NCBI GenBank assembly: GCA_016124755.1
Contig: WGNA01000002.1
Coordinates: 62,001 to 126,000 of the forward strand
Origin: Bacteroidota bacterium
Lineage (GTDB): Bacteria; Bacteroidota; Bacteroidia; NS11-12g; UBA9320
Reading direction: 5' to 3'
DNA length: 64,000 nucleotides
The notes beneath the pieces are model-generated. The model did no database searches. It saw only the letters and a list, made by a program, of their open reading frames with translations, and was not told the origin of the DNA. The translations under genes were made by a program, and so were the position numbers. Of this stretch, positions 18,928 to 26,056 are shown one piece after another (position 1 is the first letter of the stretch; each line of letters begins with the position of its first letter).

Positions 18928-20610
18928 TTGAGAATCATCCTCCTTTTAATATGTGTTACAGTCTCCGGTGTTTTCGCGCATGCCACGGAACACGCTCCAA
19001 GTATATTTTCAGCTTGTTTGAATACCGAAGACAGTGTCGTAACCATTACATATTCCAAAACTGAGGATTTGTGTAACTCATTTATCAGAAATGATTTCTG
19101 GGCCAGCCCAAATTCATCTACACCCTATATACTTCTTGGAACAAGCAACAACAAAAACCAAACGTTAATTCAATTCAAATTGTCAGATGCATTTAGCGAT
19201 TGGTCGTTTTATATTTCTACTTCAAACGATTGTTTTGGAAACCCTTCATTAACTTCTGATATATATACCATTAAACGTCCAGAATCCATAGAAATTGATT
19301 CTCTTTCATTCGACCCAAACACTAATGAACTCCTAATTGGATGGAGAAATCCTTCTGGTAAAAACATTAAAGGATACAGAATTTATCAGGAAAATGGAAG
19401 TATAAATTCCAAATTAGCCGATACTAACACAACAAATTACAGATTATCCAATTACCCCTTACAAAAATCTTATCCCATTACATTAGCAGTTTTTGACAGT
19501 TGTGATAGGTTTTCCAAAATCAGCAGAGCTCATAAACCAATCGTGTTAAACATAACCATCGACAGTTGTAAACAAATGCTCAAATTAAATTGGAACAGGT
19601 ATATAGGTTGGTTATCAGACACTTTTTGCCTATATATATCCATAGATGGATCGAATTATTCTCGATTTGTACAATTATCTGACACCTTCACTCAATATAT
19701 TTATGATTTGGGTAAACACTATTCATTCTTTATTGGCACTAAAGCTCTTTCCGATCCGCTGATTACTACCAGTTCTAACAGTGTCTCCTTCTTTGCAAAA
19801 GAGCGAATACCATCAGATTTATTTTATATCAGTCATTGCTCCATTGAAGAACCCGGAACAATCAATATGCAACTTTGGTTATTGAACGGTCATGTAGGAG
19901 ATAGCATCACGATTTCACAAATACACCCTGCAATTTCACCATCAAATGTTGCTGAACATAAAGTGATTCAAACAAATAGTTCATATAATTTAAACTATAT
20001 TATTGATACCTATGACTCCCCTTATAGCTTTATAGCATCAACAAAATCAGCATGTGGAACTTATAAAGAAACATCAAATCAGGTTAGTTCAATTCTATTA
20101 AAACTAGAAAACAACGTTCTTTATTGGAGCTCTTATGACGGTTATATAAATGGGGTCGAATTATATGTTTTGTTTGGATTCGATGGTTTCACGTGGAACA
20201 ATATTGCTGAAACCCAAGACACCTTTTATTTAATTCAAGATTCATATGAAAAATACCAAATTGTTGCCAATGCCTCAACAAATCAATTTAACATAAAAGA
20301 ACAGTCTAAGTCAAATATCGTTACAAGTGATGAACACTCCACTATATTTATACCCAACGCAATAAATGTCAACAGTTCCAACAACACTTTTAAAGTTTTA
20401 GGTAAAAACATAGATGTAACCAAATCCCATTTCATTTTATTCAATCGTTGGGGAGAAGTAATCTACAAGGGAAATAATGTACTAACAGGTTATACATTTA
20501 ACATTGAAGGTGACAATATCCACACAGATCTAATATTTTATTCCGTTTATATCTATGACTATCAAGGCAGACAAACTCAACAATCCGGCTATCTATCAAT
20601 AATTCGCTGA
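18928..20610 (+). CDS. T9SS type B sorting-domain protein with FN3/Ig-like repeats
   Basis: 560 residues from a TTG start; the signal peptide (MRIILLLICVTVSGVFA) begins directly there, which fixes the start. The body has several beta-sandwich, FN3-like segments rich in paired cysteines (for example at CFGNPS, CDRF and CGTYKE). The last about 85 residues are a gliding-motility/CHU_C type sorting signal: FIPNAINV, the FNRWGEVIYKG core and a GYLSIIR ending. Such proteins are exported by the type IX system and shuttled to the surface. Function beyond being a surface protein is unknown. A parS-type site lies inside the coding sequence. AT-rich with many C on the coding strand. ybeY follows after one base. 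Confidence 0.82.
   Translation: MRIILLLICVTVSGVFAHATEHAPSIFSACLNTEDSVVTITYSKTEDLCNSFIRNDFWASPNSSTPYILLGTSNNKNQTLIQFKLSDAFSDWSFYISTSNDCFGNPSLTSDIYTIKRPESIEIDSLSFDPNTNELLIGWRNPSGKNIKGYRIYQENGSINSKLADTNTTNYRLSNYPLQKSYPITLAVFDSCDRFSKISRAHKPIVLNITIDSCKQMLKLNWNRYIGWLSDTFCLYISIDGSNYSRFVQLSDTFTQYIYDLGKHYSFFIGTKALSDPLITTSSNSVSFFAKERIPSDLFYISHCSIEEPGTINMQLWLLNGHVGDSITISQIHPAISPSNVAEHKVIQTNSSYNLNYIIDTYDSPYSFIASTKSACGTYKETSNQVSSILLKLENNVLYWSSYDGYINGVELYVLFGFDGFTWNNIAETQDTFYLIQDSYEKYQIVANASTNQFNIKEQSKSNIVTSDEHSTIFIPNAINVNSSNNTFKVLGKNIDVTKSHFILFNRWGEVIYKGNNVLTGYTFNIEGDNIHTDLIFYSVYIYDYQGRQTQQSGYLSIIR
20186..20199. other. parS-type ParB-binding site (copy 1, intragenic)
   Basis: GTTTCACGTGGAAC differs by one base from the consensus GTTTCACGTGAAAC and is the exact reverse complement of copy 2. 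It lies inside the type B T9SS gene, where it encodes part of GFTWNN. Confidence 0.6.
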
Positions 20611-20611
20611 A

Positions 20612-21028
20612 ATGATTAATCATCACTGGATGTTAGAACTTCAATGTAATGTCAACCTTAAAGATCTAACAAAATGGATACAAAGCTGCTTATCCCAAAT
20701 GGGGCAGCAAGTAGAAAACTTGAATGTTGTATATTTAAATGATGCATCTCTATTAGAACTAAATATTGAACATTTAAATCACGACTATTACACTGATATA
20801 CTAACCTTTGATTTACGAGATAATGATAATTCACATTTATTGGCAGATATCTACATCAGCGTTGATCGTGTCAAAAGCAATTCAGCTAAATATTCTGTAA
20901 CTTTTGAACAAGAATTAAAACGGGTAATTATTCACGGAATCTTACACCTTATGGGTTATAATGATAAAACTCTGCAAGAAAAGAATGAAATGAAAAACAT
21001 GGAAGATCACTATTTAAATAACGCCTAA
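20612..21028 (+). CDS. ybeY: rRNA maturation endoribonuclease YbeY
   Basis: 138 residues. YbeY is a metal-dependent RNase in 16S rRNA 3' processing and 70S quality control. Visible: the DYYTDILTFDLR strand and the metal motif in IHGILHLMGYNDKT. The canonical site is H-x3-H-x5-H; here the third histidine position is an aspartate or lysine (GYNDK), a substitution I recall as usual in Bacteroidota YbeY. It starts one base after the upstream stop, and its own stop is two bases from the parS site that precedes mnmG. Probably co-transcribed with mnmG. Confidence 0.9.
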   Translation: MINHHWMLELQCNVNLKDLTKWIQSCLSQMGQQVENLNVVYLNDASLLELNIEHLNHDYYTDILTFDLRDNDNSHLLADIYISVDRVKSNSAKYSVTFEQELKRVIIHGILHLMGYNDKTLQEKNEMKNMEDHYLNNA

Positions 21029-21030
21029 AT

Positions 21031-21044
21031 GTTCCACGTGAAAC
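21031..21044. other. parS-type ParB-binding site (copy 2, between ybeY and mnmG)
   Basis: TGTTCCACGTGAAACA (21030-21045) matches the 16 bp consensus TGTTTCACGTGAAACA at 15 positions. It exactly fills the gap between the ybeY stop and the mnmG ATG. parS next to gidA/mnmG is a known arrangement near bacterial origins. Confidence 0.8.
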
Positions 21045-21045
21045 A

Positions 21046-22896
21046 ATGAAATACGATGTTATTGTAGTAGGTGCTGGTCATTCCGGTTGTGAGGCAGCAC
21101 TTTCTTCTGCCAAATTGGGTTGCACAGTTCTTTTAATCACCTCAAACTTAGAAACAATCGCCAAAATGTCCTGCAACCCCGCAATTGGTGGCGTAGCGAA
21201 AGGTCAAATTGTTCGAGAAATTGACGCCCTAGGAGGTGAAATGGGCATCATTACAGATAGATCCTCTGTCCAGTTTCGAATGCTTAATAGATCAAAAGGT
21301 GCTGCTATGTGGAGTCCACGTGCTCAATCAGATCGTCATGAATATTCATCCATTTGGCGCCAAACCCTTGAGCAGCATCCAAATATTCACCTATTTCAAG
21401 ACACTGTTAACAACATTGTTCTAAATAAGGATGACGTTTGTGGCGTAGTTACACAACTCGGGTTTAACTTTCAATGTCAAACTCTAATTCTTACTAATGG
21501 AACATTTCTCAATGGATTAGTTCATATCGGACTAAATAACTTTTCAGGTGGAAGAATTTCCGAACATAAGGTAACCGGCATAACAGAAAAATTAGTTGAA
21601 CTTGGATTTACAACAGATAGAATGAAAACCGGAACACCCCCAAGAGTTGATGGGCGAAGTTTAGATTATTCCTTAATGGAAGAACAAAAGGGGGACGATT
21701 TGCCCAGTACATTTTCTTTTTACAAACCTCAACCGTTAGAAAAACAATTAAGTTGTTTCATCACATATACAAATACCACCGTACACGATATACTCCGAGA
21801 AGGTTTTGAGCAAAGCCCAATGTTCAATGGGAACATCACAGGAATAGGTCCCAGATATTGCCCTAGCATCGAAGACAAAATAAATCGCTTTGCAGAAAGA
21901 TCTAGGCATCAAATATTTGTGGAACCAGAAGGATGGAACACCATCGAAACATATATCAATGGTTTTTCAACTTCTCTTCCAATAGATATCCAAGAAAGAG
22001 CATTACGAGAAATACCTGGATTCAAGACCGCAAGAATGTTTAGACCTGGCTATGCAATTGAATATGATTACTTTCACCCTACTCAATTATACCACACTCT
22101 TGAAACCAAAATAATTAATAATCTATTTCTTGCCGGTCAAATTAATGGCACGACTGGATATGAAGAAGCAGCAGCACAAGGATTAATTGCAGGGATAAAT
22201 GCAGCCCTAAAAGTAAAAAACACAGAACCATTCATTTTGGATAGATCTGATGCCTACATAGGAGTTTTAATAGATGATTTAGTAACCAAAGGAACTGAAG
22301 AACCCTATCGCATGTTTACTTCAAGGGCAGAATACAGAATTTTGCTAAGACAAGATAATGCTGACGAACGATTAACTCCACTTGGACATAAAATTGGTCT
22401 GGCTTCGGATGAACGATTAAATAATTTGAATAAAAAACAACAGAATATTTCTTCCATTCTAAATATTCTCAACAACACATCAGTTGAACCTTCTGTTATA
22501 AATCCTTTACTTGAACAAGCTAATACTTCAACAATTACCGAAAAAACCAAACTCAGTAAATTGATTTTACGCCCGCAATTAAAAATAGATGATATTCTCA
22601 ATAGTTCAATTGGTTACAATCTAAAAGAATTTGAAACAACAGAACTTGAAGAATCAGAAATTCTACTGAAGTATGAAGGATATATACAAAAAGAAAAAGA
22701 AGTAGCTGAGAAGTTAAAAAATCTTAAACACATTAAAATTCCATCAGACTTTGAATACAACAAAGTAAATTCATTGTCGTCTGAAGCAAGAGAAAAACTA
22801 AATCTTATAAAACCCATTAACATTGGGCAAGCAACACAAATTAGTGGTGTAAGTGCATCTGATATTTCCGTGCTATTGGTTTATTTCGGACGATGA
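21046..22896 (+). CDS. mnmG: tRNA uridine-5-carboxymethylaminomethyl modification enzyme MnmG (GidA)
   Basis: 616 residues, full length. With MnmE it installs the cmnm5 group on U34 of tRNAs reading A/G-ending codons, using FAD, NADH and folate. FAD-binding GAGHSGCEAALSSAKLG opens the protein; the conserved CNPAIGGVAKGQIVREIDALGG, the active-site segment GTPPRVDGRS, RYCPSIEDKI and GTTGYEEAAAQGLIAG all match. The C-terminal helical domain that contacts MnmE and tRNA closes the protein (about 540-616). The start is fixed by the family N-terminus and the abutting parS. The ATGA overlap links it to the lipoprotein gene after it. mnmE is not in the window. Confidence 0.97.
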   Translation: MKYDVIVVGAGHSGCEAALSSAKLGCTVLLITSNLETIAKMSCNPAIGGVAKGQIVREIDALGGEMGIITDRSSVQFRMLNRSKGAAMWSPRAQSDRHEYSSIWRQTLEQHPNIHLFQDTVNNIVLNKDDVCGVVTQLGFNFQCQTLILTNGTFLNGLVHIGLNNFSGGRISEHKVTGITEKLVELGFTTDRMKTGTPPRVDGRSLDYSLMEEQKGDDLPSTFSFYKPQPLEKQLSCFITYTNTTVHDILREGFEQSPMFNGNITGIGPRYCPSIEDKINRFAERSRHQIFVEPEGWNTIETYINGFSTSLPIDIQERALREIPGFKTARMFRPGYAIEYDYFHPTQLYHTLETKIINNLFLAGQINGTTGYEEAAAQGLIAGINAALKVKNTEPFILDRSDAYIGVLIDDLVTKGTEEPYRMFTSRAEYRILLRQDNADERLTPLGHKIGLASDERLNNLNKKQQNISSILNILNNTSVEPSVINPLLEQANTSTITEKTKLSKLILRPQLKIDDILNSSIGYNLKEFETTELEESEILLKYEGYIQKEKEVAEKLKNLKHIKIPSDFEYNKVNSLSSEAREKLNLIKPINIGQATQISGVSASDISVLLVYFGR

Positions 22897-24488
22897 ATTT
22901 TAAACAATTCGTTCTACTATTTTTAGTAGCTACAACCATATTTTCCTGTGCTACGGTAGGAACTTTAACCGGCGGTGATACCGATACATCTCCTCCTTCA
23001 GTTATTTCCACCAATCCAGACAGTGCACAAGTCAACATTTATCCATCTAAAATATTCTTCAATTTTGATGAATTAATAGTCGTAAAGGATTTCAATAATG
23101 AGGTATTCTTATCTCCTCCTATCAACGAAGCGCTAACCTATAAGGTTAAAAATAAATCATTCATTATTTCCCTGCCTAATTCCCTGAAGCCAAATACCAC
23201 CTATCATTTAAACTTGGGCAATTCGATTTCTGACATTAACGAAGGCAATGTTCTAAACAATTTTGATTTAGTTTTCTCAACAGGTAATTTTCTTGATTCA
23301 GGTAACCTAACAGGAAAGGTGTATTCCTCAATCAATGGTAAACCGGAATTCTCTAACAAGCTTTGTTTATATCCTTATAAAGAACGCGATTCCATATTTA
23401 ATCTAACCCTACCATTATACAAGACCCAAATCGATTCTTCAGGTTTCTTTAATTTCACTAACATCAAGAAAAACAACTATTTCATTTATGGATTTACGGA
23501 TCTTAATAAAAATTCAAGATTAGATGTTAATGAACGTGTTTTTTTTAAAAATGTAGATTCCAACACTACCATAGCAAATGATATATCATCCTTTCCTTTT
23601 GAAGAAACCGAATACCAATTCAAATCTATAAGTCAGATAAAATCTAACAAATTCAATATTTATCTAAATCGCTCACTACAGGATAGCATTCAATTATTGT
23701 ATGGCTCAGCACAAACCAAGAACCCATTAATCTCAAGATACAATCAGAAAGAAAATTACCTAGAAGCGTTTATCGATAAAAATTCAATACCAAAATCTGA
23801 TACAATAAATCTCTATCTCACAATTGGTACCGACACTCTTGCTTCTATAACAACAAAATATATCTTTTCCAACGACACCACTCTTAATAAGCTTTCCGTT
23901 TTCAAACCACATCTAACAGAAACCAACAAAATATATGTAGCTTCCGATAACCCATTACTCGATGTAAAGAAAGAATATATCTCAATTGTTCAAGACAGTA
24001 GTATTGTTCCAGCCTCAAACATAGAATTAATAAATCCCTTTCTCTTCTCTGTTAAACTACCCTCAACTATAACCGGTAGTGTAATGCTCATAGTTAAAGA
24101 TTCAGCACTTAATCTCTCTTCCGCAATTCCTTCCACAGATAGTATTGAAGCAATTTTATATTCCGCTGAACAATTAGGGTCAGCCAGAATTCAAATCAAA
24201 ACAAATCAAAACACCGAAAGATGTATTTTTCAAATACTCTCCAACGAAAATCTAGATCAACAAGTGGTATATAATAGAATATTCAATTCAGATACTTCCT
24301 TCTACTTCCCATTTATACAACCTGGATCATTTACCCTAAAAGTAATTGTTGATTCTGATAAAAACGGGTACTGGACTAATGGAGATATTGTTAAATTAAG
24401 ACAACCTGAGAAGATTTACATTTCTCCCTCCCCTCTGGTTATACGGAAAAACTGGGAAAACGCATTTATTTTTGATTTGTTAGAATAA
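22893..24488 (+). CDS. Ig-like (Big_5/SbsA-type) domain lipoprotein
   Basis: 531 residues. A lipoprotein signal with cysteine at about 19 (VATTIFSC) is followed by the GGDTDTSPPSVISTNPDSA stretch typical of Bacteroidota proteins with an N-terminal bacterial Ig-like (Big_5) domain, about residues 35-130. Middle and C-terminal regions are beta-rich; the DLNKNSRLD and DSDKNGYWTNGD stretches look like calcium-binding or carboxypeptidase-regulatory turns. Family members are widespread surface or periplasmic lipoproteins of unknown function. It overlaps mnmG by four bases. The coding strand has more than twice as many C as G in stretches I counted. It is the last gene before the gene-free candidate origin. 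Confidence 0.8.
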   Translation: MNFKQFVLLFLVATTIFSCATVGTLTGGDTDTSPPSVISTNPDSAQVNIYPSKIFFNFDELIVVKDFNNEVFLSPPINEALTYKVKNKSFIISLPNSLKPNTTYHLNLGNSISDINEGNVLNNFDLVFSTGNFLDSGNLTGKVYSSINGKPEFSNKLCLYPYKERDSIFNLTLPLYKTQIDSSGFFNFTNIKKNNYFIYGFTDLNKNSRLDVNERVFFKNVDSNTTIANDISSFPFEETEYQFKSISQIKSNKFNIYLNRSLQDSIQLLYGSAQTKNPLISRYNQKENYLEAFIDKNSIPKSDTINLYLTIGTDTLASITTKYIFSNDTTLNKLSVFKPHLTETNKIYVASDNPLLDVKKEYISIVQDSSIVPASNIELINPFLFSVKLPSTITGSVMLIVKDSALNLSSAIPSTDSIEAILYSAEQLGSARIQIKTNQNTERCIFQILSNENLDQQVVYNRIFNSDTSFYFPFIQPGSFTLKVIVDSDKNGYWTNGDIVKLRQPEKIYISPSPLVIRKNWENAFIFDLLE

Positions 24489-24921
24489 CTACCTCATTTT
24501 CAAAACATTAGAAAAAAACTCAAGTTCTCTTAAATTGTTAATAAACCTCCATTTTGTGGTTTAAATACCAACAATACTGTTTCACGACATACACTACAGC
24601 ACAGAAATTCCACTTGACCAATCTCTAACAACAACTTCATTAACAACATTTCACAGAATCAATTATTAACATCTCTCTTGTTAATGACAAATTATCTGAA
24701 CAGCATACACAAAACATTTAGCTGTTTTATTGATAGGACAGCATAAATATCTTTATGAAAAAATGTTGATATTAAAATCCAAACCATCTCATCGCACGAG
24801 AAATCCACAAATTCACAGCACTTAATTAAGAAATATAAATTTTTAAATTTTCTTTTTTCTTTTCATTTGTTGAAAGCGCAATCTCCATTACCACAATCAC
24901 ATCTTTGATATTTTTGCTGAG
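24489..24921. other. Gene-free AT-rich gap, candidate chromosome origin (oriC)
   Basis: 433 bases with no credible gene on either strand. It holds four near-identical 9-mers: TGTTAATAA at 24536-24544 (+), its complement at 24663-24671, TGTTAATGA at 24679-24687 (+), and its complement at 24637-24645. Each differs at two or three positions from the DnaA box TGTGGATAA. ACAGCA recurs four times, and 24820-24880 is very AT-rich and could be an unwinding element. At the right edge base composition of the + strand flips: in 24001-24120 I count 13 G and 29 C, in 24961-25080 25 G and 16 C. The parS pair lies 3.4-4.3 kb to the left. No perfect DnaA box is present and dnaA is not in the window, so this is an inference. 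Confidence 0.45.
24909..24916 (+). promoter_or_regulatory. Bacteroidota -7 promoter element (TATTTTTG) for pheS
   Basis: Exact TAnnTTTG five bases before the pheS ATG; a one-mismatch copy (CATCTTTG) lies at 24900-24907 and would leave a more usual leader. Confidence 0.4.
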
Positions 24922-25929
24922 ATGAAAGAGAAGATTGAAGAAGTCTTAAAACAAGCAAAACAATTTAAAATCGCAAGCAAAGAAGATGTTGAGCAATTCA
25001 GGTTGAAATTTTTAACCAGGAAAAGCGATATCAACGAATTGTTTGCAAGATTGAAAGAAGTTCCAACCGAAGAAAAAAGGAATGTAGGACAACTTCTCAA
25101 TCAACTTAGATCCGACTTGGAGAAGATTTTTGATGATGCCAAACTTAAATTTGATGCCAACGAGGAAGATTTTAATTATGATCTTAGCCTTCCATCCTTC
25201 AATTTTAGCACAACCGGAATACACCCGTTATCAGTTGTTAAAACAGAATTGATATCGATTTTTCTTAAAATGGGCTTTGATGTTTCAGAAGGTCCTGAAA
25301 TAGAAGATGACTGGCATAACTTCTCGGCATTAAATTTTCCCGAGAATCACCCGGCAAGGGACATGCAGGATACTTTTTTTATTGAAAATGAAATTTCTTT
25401 AAGAACGCATACTTCATCTGTTCAGGTAAGAGTGATGGAGAATAAAATGCCCCCGATTCGAACAATTTCTCCGGGAAGAGTTTACAGAAATGAGGCTATA
25501 AGTTCCAGATCAAACTGCTTCTTTCACCAAATTGAAGGATTGTATATTGATGAAAAGGTATCCTTTGCAGACCTCAAACAAACACTGTTTTTATTCGTAC
25601 AGGAATTTTTTGGAGAAGGAACCAGAGTTCGTTTCAGACCCAGCTATTTTCCCTTTACAGAACCCAGTGCAGAAATGGATATTTATCTTGGGACAGAATC
25701 AGATGCAGATAAACGACTTACAAAAGGAACCGGTTGGCTTGAAATATTGGGTTGTGGTATGGTAGACACAGCGGTGCTTAAAAATTGTGGAATTGATTCA
25801 GATAAGTATAGCGGCTTTGCATTTGGGATGGGTGTTGAACGTATCGCAATGTTCAAGTATGGAGTCAAGGATCTTAGAACATTCTTTGAAAATGACACAA
25901 GATTTTTAGAACAGTTTTACGCTGTCTGA
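24922..25929 (+). CDS. pheS: Phenylalanyl-tRNA synthetase alpha subunit
   Basis: 335 residues. Class II synthetase catalytic subunit that charges tRNA-Phe as an alpha2beta2 enzyme. An N-terminal coiled-coil tRNA-binding arm (about 1-85) precedes the catalytic domain. Motif 2 (GRVYRNEAISSRSNCFFHQIE) and motif 3 (GFAFGMGVERIAMFKYG, with the ATP-binding arginine) are intact, as is FPFTEPSAEMDI. pheT is not next to it, unlike in many bacteria. It is the first gene with a G-rich coding strand after the candidate origin. Followed by tRNA-Pro. Confidence 0.97.
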   Translation: MKEKIEEVLKQAKQFKIASKEDVEQFRLKFLTRKSDINELFARLKEVPTEEKRNVGQLLNQLRSDLEKIFDDAKLKFDANEEDFNYDLSLPSFNFSTTGIHPLSVVKTELISIFLKMGFDVSEGPEIEDDWHNFSALNFPENHPARDMQDTFFIENEISLRTHTSSVQVRVMENKMPPIRTISPGRVYRNEAISSRSNCFFHQIEGLYIDEKVSFADLKQTLFLFVQEFFGEGTRVRFRPSYFPFTEPSAEMDIYLGTESDADKRLTKGTGWLEILGCGMVDTAVLKNCGIDSDKYSGFAFGMGVERIAMFKYGVKDLRTFFENDTRFLEQFYAV

Positions 25930-25978: not shown

Positions 25979-26056
25979 CGGGATGTAGCTCAGCCCGGTT
26001 AGAGTACACGTCTGGGGGGCGTGTGGTCGCTGGTTCGAATCCAGTCATCCCGACCA
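25979..26056 (+). tRNA. tRNA-Pro (anticodon GGG)
   Basis: Folds as a cloverleaf: acceptor CGGGATG / CATCCCG, anticodon stem CACGT/GCGTG around loop CTGGGGG with anticodon GGG at 26014-26016, T-arm GCTGG/CCAGT with TTCGAAT. Discriminator A and the CCA end (26054-26056) are encoded. The C1-G72 pair is the usual proline identity pair. Confidence 0.96.

Follow-up and report, generated by a model that had tools for sequence, protein, structure and literature searches.

Where the chromosome of this uncultured Bacteroidota bacterium starts to replicate, and whether the AT-rich gap in front of pheS is that place, is the question raised by this locus. The window, the whole stretch of 64 kb analysed here, comprises bases 62001-126000 of contig C1 (359,908 bases) in a 4.05-Mb draft genome of 39 contigs. 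The nearest pheS loci belong to uncultured Bacteroidota (61-63% identity), with up to 72% identity in relatives of the same family. From left to right, the genes are a XerC/D-like recombinase and an rluB-like gene on the minus strand, followed on the plus strand by a long secreted-protein gene, ybeY, mnmG, a Big_5 gene and, beyond the gap, pheS. The gap spans 433 bp between the stop codon and the start codon of two plus-strand open reading frames and has an AT content of 70.9%, compared with 59.4% for the whole window. In addition, a tRNA gene lies directly after pheS (25979-26053, plus strand). The genes and the gap are as follows.

20612-21028, plus strand: ybeY, endoribonuclease (Pfam PF02130)
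21046-22896, plus strand: mnmG (gidA) (Pfam PF01134)
22893-24488, plus strand: lipoprotein-like protein with a Big_5 domain, left neighbour of the gap (Pfam PF13205)
24489-24921, no strand: proposed oriC, the AT-rich DNA that separates the Big_5 lipoprotein gene from pheS (from the skew minimum, the conserved gap length and the skew of relatives)
24922-25929, plus strand: pheS, right neighbour of the gap (Pfam PF01409, PF02912)

The initial annotation placed a candidate chromosome origin in this gap, and the proposal is supported by converging lines of evidence, including GC skew in the window and in relatives, the sole parS cluster of the genome, the conserved length of the gap, a directional pair of DnaA-box-like sites and the 40-bp stretch with the lowest stability in the window. 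Judged from these sequence comparisons, the gap is very probably the chromosomal oriC.

Cumulative G minus C over the 64-kb window is lowest at 24903, within the gap, and this position is still the minimum over bases 1 to 226,000 of C1 apart from 2 kb. These curves cover stretches only, as a 39-contig draft precludes a whole-chromosome curve. The switch in plus-strand composition described earlier is real, and its base counts (13 G/29 C before the gap and 25 G/16 C after it) are exact. From the left to the right of the gap, skew at third codon positions increases by about 0.12 in genes of either strand, indicating that the switch is not caused by gene orientation. Gene orientation itself, which had also been cited in favour of an origin, is a weak argument, with 10.95 kb of plus-strand and 10.84 kb of minus-strand coding bases to the left of the gap and 24.3 kb and 12.0 kb, respectively, to the right. 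Among relatives, G013 (main contig 2.41 Mb) has a local skew minimum at 2107904, 95 bp upstream of pheS (2107999), and its sampled skew, although noisy, is mainly below zero between about 1.0 and 2.1 Mb and above zero beyond. Four further relatives (G017, G002, L044 and G052) have their minimum either inside the gap or no more than about 110 bp from where pheS starts, while in several others, for which about 20 kb around pheS were read, the minimum of the stretch falls elsewhere. In G053, from another family of the same order, skew forms a broad V that spans about 390-430 kb and includes pheS at 406 kb. Skew is noisy, however, and the exact local minimum lies 23 kb from pheS in G053 and 5.7 kb in G049. 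This noise, the fragmentation of the draft and the displaced minima of some relatives count against an origin in the gap.

Two parS sites lie to the left of the gap.

20185-20200, no strand: parS site 1 (GGTTTCACGTGGAACA), inside the gene preceding ybeY, exact match to GTTNCACGTGNAAC
21030-21045, no strand: parS site 2 (TGTTCCACGTGAAACA), between ybeY and mnmG, exact match to GTTNCACGTGNAAC

They are the only exact GTTNCACGTGNAAC matches in the whole genome, at 3.4 and 4.3 kb from the gap. The initial annotation gave the distance of 3.4 kb correctly for the site at 21030 and overlooked the one at 20185. All 12 relatives searched carry two or three parS, which are clustered and lie at ybeY-mnmG wherever these genes were mapped, and parS stands beside mnmG or ybeY in 28 of the 29 Bacteroidota loci inspected (L195-L223). 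The linkage of parS to mnmG holds in this genome even though parB, with a single match on contig C31, and dnaA sit on other contigs. In many of the 29 loci, parS flanks mnmG on both sides, and G035 has a third, perfect parS within the origin gap itself (L152:9964-9977).

Within the gap, a tandem pair of box-like sites precedes an AT-rich stretch.

24801-24809, plus strand: DnaA-box-like site 1, AAATCCACA, two mismatches to TTATCCACA, conserved in position on the plus strand
24809-24817, plus strand: DnaA-box-like site 2, AAATTCACA, three mismatches, abutting site 1 with one base shared; the same pair occurs in relatives
24822-24861, no strand: probable DNA unwinding element, the least stable 40 bp of the 64-kb window

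This putative box pair, unnamed in the initial annotation, is the most conserved element of the gap. Relatives carry a matching pair about 110-140 bp upstream of pheS (e.g., ATCCACAAATCCACAG in G017 and G001), and the 16-mer over the pair at 24801-24817 has no other match with under 2 mismatches in the genome. The motif WTYMACA occurs on the plus strand 95-155 bp upstream of pheS in 33 of 39 gaps, compared with 4.2 in shuffles (maximum 12) and with 2 of 39 on the opposite strand. A Big_5-pheS gap of 348-475 bp is kept in most of the relatives checked. An oriC is expected to hold an AT-rich unwinding element adjoining its boxes, and such a stretch is found at 24822-24861, directly downstream of the pair and ranked first of 63,960 positions in a nearest-neighbour stability scan of the window. 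The DnaA of this genome retains the GRDHSTV signature in domain IV, which, with its surrounding residues, we take to be that expected for recognition of TTATCCACA-type boxes.

A basal unwinding system (BUS) combines one DnaA box, or a pair of them, with a spacer and three or more DnaA-trios, and the BUS rule calls for a box with at most two mismatches, a second with at most four, and at least three consecutive trios (3'-NAN-5') within 16 bp of a box (PMC8287927). Comparison with relatives places the trio region immediately after the pair.

24818-24836, plus strand: position of the DnaA-trios of relatives, here the non-canonical GCACTTAATTAAGAAATAT

In the window, AAATCCACA and AAATTCACA, with two and three mismatches and one shared base, fit the box part of the rule, but at most two trios are consecutive; the site is therefore BUS-like in layout and is not classed as a BUS, a shortfall that also weighs against the origin reading. 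Relatives such as L030, L035, L036, L039 and G053 do carry at least three consecutive trios, with CTTATACTACTACTATTAA in L036 and ATAATACTAATACTATTAG in G053 at the trio position (alignment row L014, on the wrong strand, was disregarded). Sister genera carry CTTAATAAAGAAATAAGAA or close variants there, and the window has CTTAATTAAGAAATA. The arrangement resembles the B. subtilis incC BUS in its one-strand tandem pair of DnaA-box-like sites, its short GC-containing spacer followed by AT-rich DNA, and the canonical DnaA-trios that several relatives carry in the right place and on the right strand. It differs in that the window is without three consecutive trios, near relatives having a CTTAATAAAGAAATAAGAA-like tract and the window CTTAATTAAGAAATA. 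An automatic scorer of box pair plus trios did not rise above shuffles in most genomes, whereas anchoring by position before pheS did, and a BUS scan near parS in other orders gave no convincing match. A tentative and rather doubtful idea is that the DnaA-trio step has been rewritten within one family, with the box pair fixed and CTA trios replaced by a CTTAATAAAGAAATAAGAA-type tract in this genus and its near kin, so that DnaA or a partner would read single-stranded DNA by another code. The seven DnaA proteins compared with regard to this change are all close in their AAA+ and DNA-binding regions. Separately, a second motif, CTATTACTACCGTGGA, is conserved in genus g3 (L016, L021 and L022) about 60 bp upstream of pheS, downstream of the AT-rich stretch; it is trio-like and terminates in an inverted partial DnaA box.

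The origin could also lie in the same region at another spot within about 10 kb, for example in the AT-rich DNA at about 19.95 or 23.6 kb by parS and mnmG, but this is quite improbable. Similarly unstable DNA does occur at 19954 and 23610 (60-bp windows), parS stands beside mnmG phylum-wide, and the box clusters of other orders lie at varying distances from parS-mnmG. However, both unstable stretches fall within genes, and in several genomes the skew minimum is at the gap rather than at mnmG. Genus g13, in which pheS lies about 39 kb (G037) and about 9 kb (G049) away from mnmG and parS, bears on the same point. Its cumulative skew is lower at pheS than at parS (-810 vs -603 in G037; -591 vs -372 in G049), and both pheS gaps retain TTACCACTATTCACA, which suggests that the origin remained with pheS after rearrangement. 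As the exact minima lie 19 kb (G037) and 5.7 kb (G049) from pheS, this evidence is supportive only.

The initial annotation had instead singled out four TGTTAAT(A/G)A 9-mers in both orientations. They are present in the gap as described, on the plus strand at 24536 and 24679 and on the minus strand at 24637 and 24663, with five more in the rest of the window. Read as boxes, they are as follows.

24536-24544, minus strand: possible weak DnaA box, TTATTAACA, TGTTAATRA site in the gap
24637-24645, plus strand: possible weak DnaA box, TCATTAACA, TGTTAATRA site in the gap
24663-24671, plus strand: possible weak DnaA box, TTATTAACA, TGTTAATRA site in the gap
24679-24687, minus strand: possible weak DnaA box, TCATTAACA, TGTTAATRA site in the gap

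Four copies were reached in none of 5000 dinucleotide shuffles of the gap (mean 0.047). Because TGTTAATRA was picked after looking, and 5% of shuffled gaps have a best 9-mer family of at least four copies (P ~0.05), the 9-mers taken alone are modest evidence. Their conservation, proposed earlier as a check, holds in part: TGTTAATRA is enriched in the gaps of relatives (8 seen vs 1.9 expected), but individually it is less conserved, being present in 8 of 25 gaps compared with the site at the pair position in 33 of 39. The 9-mers are real, and their choice as the key boxes was only partly right. The broader motif TYWTYMACA is observed 4 times in the gap against 0.49 expected and 30 times in relatives against 6.1, and the k-mers ATTAACA (74 seen, 12.5 expected) and ATCCACA (24 seen, 1.5 expected) are also enriched in the gaps of relatives. 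The gap holds no perfect TTATCCACA box, as noted earlier, and none within one mismatch, which counts against an oriC; six sites lie at two mismatches. Counting sites with at most two mismatches to TTATCCACA was dropped as a marker, as a few other 433-bp windows have five or six and the gap is not strongly singled out. No mention of TTATTAACA as a DnaA box in Bacteroidota emerged from a search of the literature. In the gaps of L046, L047 and L102, AATGCGACA occurs six times in total, in both orientations, and is possibly a lineage-specific origin repeat.

The same modest P ~0.05 could be taken to mean that the gap serves as a conventional regulatory region for pheS, with the 9-mers as regulator sites or chance occurrences. 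A promoter-like TATTTTTG at 24908-24921, which we take to resemble the Bacteroidota -7 promoter element and similar sequence to which is kept in relatives, fits this reading; as it ends about 5 bp upstream of the start codon, the pheS mRNA may be leaderless. Nevertheless, in most loci from Flavobacteriaceae and Sphingobacteriaceae the gap upstream of pheS is short and parS does not occur within 8 kb of the gene, an RNA family search of the gap gave no match, and regulation of pheS would leave the skew minimum, the clustering of parS and the stability minimum unexplained, making this a very remote prospect. An origin beside dnaA, as in many other bacteria, can scarcely be entertained: the dnaA locus on contig C3 does have TTATCAACA and TTATTCACA close by (L001:826-855), but C3 has zero parS, in G013 a distance of 850 kb separates dnaA from the sharp skew minimum at pheS, and boxes near dnaA are consistent with autoregulation. 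Both TTATCAACA and TTATTCACA may be autoregulatory DnaA boxes that form a link between TTATCCACA and the TTATTAACA sites in the gap.

An oriC in the gap, away from dnaA, is in line with known systems. A location of oriC far from dnaA is common in Bacteroidetes, as described for Prevotella intermedia (PMC4755523), and the origins of mouse-gut bacteria, two Bacteroidetes among them, were placed via skew and parS with coverage support rather than via dnaA (PMC10197239); given these precedents, an oriC without adjoining dnaA is expected here. The gap is thus very probably a new example of the dnaA-distant oriC already documented for Bacteroidetes. It shares with P. intermedia chromosome 1 and DoriC entries a GC-skew transition, candidate DnaA boxes and a distant dnaA (PMC4755523), and is unlike them in its flanking Big_5 lipoprotein gene and pheS and in its degenerate boxes. 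As in the enterobacterial gidA(mnmG)-oriC-mioC arrangement, the proposed origin lies a few kb from mnmG (Yersinia example, PMC10225481), whereas here the gap is about 1.6 kb from mnmG, with one gene in between, and parS stands beside mnmG. Two near-palindromic parS close to the origin and a single parB match recall the ParABS-parS origin domain, from which this locus differs in having parB on another contig, C31. The literature searched yielded no paper describing an origin next to pheS or DnaA-trios in Bacteroidota, which does not disprove the existence of such papers.

From this layout, we infer DnaA binding, melting and bidirectional initiation at the gap. DnaA, encoded elsewhere in the genome, would bind the weak boxes across the left 300 bp of the gap and the directional tandem pair at 24801-24817, from which it would extend rightward onto single-stranded DNA and melt 24822-24861. 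Helicases would load at the melted stretch, with forks departing both ways, and ParB loading at the two parS 3.4-4.3 kb to the left would promote segregation of the new origins.

Collectively, these analyses narrow the probable origin of an uncultured Bacteroidota bacterium to 433 bp of intergenic DNA, in which opening likely occurs within about 60 bp, and point to an origin gene context conserved across an order. Because dnaA gives no hint of their position, the origins of uncultured Bacteroidota can readily go unannotated, and the occurrence of parS beside mnmG or ybeY in nearly all loci checked suggests a rule for the phylum, namely that origins be searched for near mnmG. In addition, the change in the trio region between sister genera offers a natural comparison for the sequence needs of DnaA in DNA opening.
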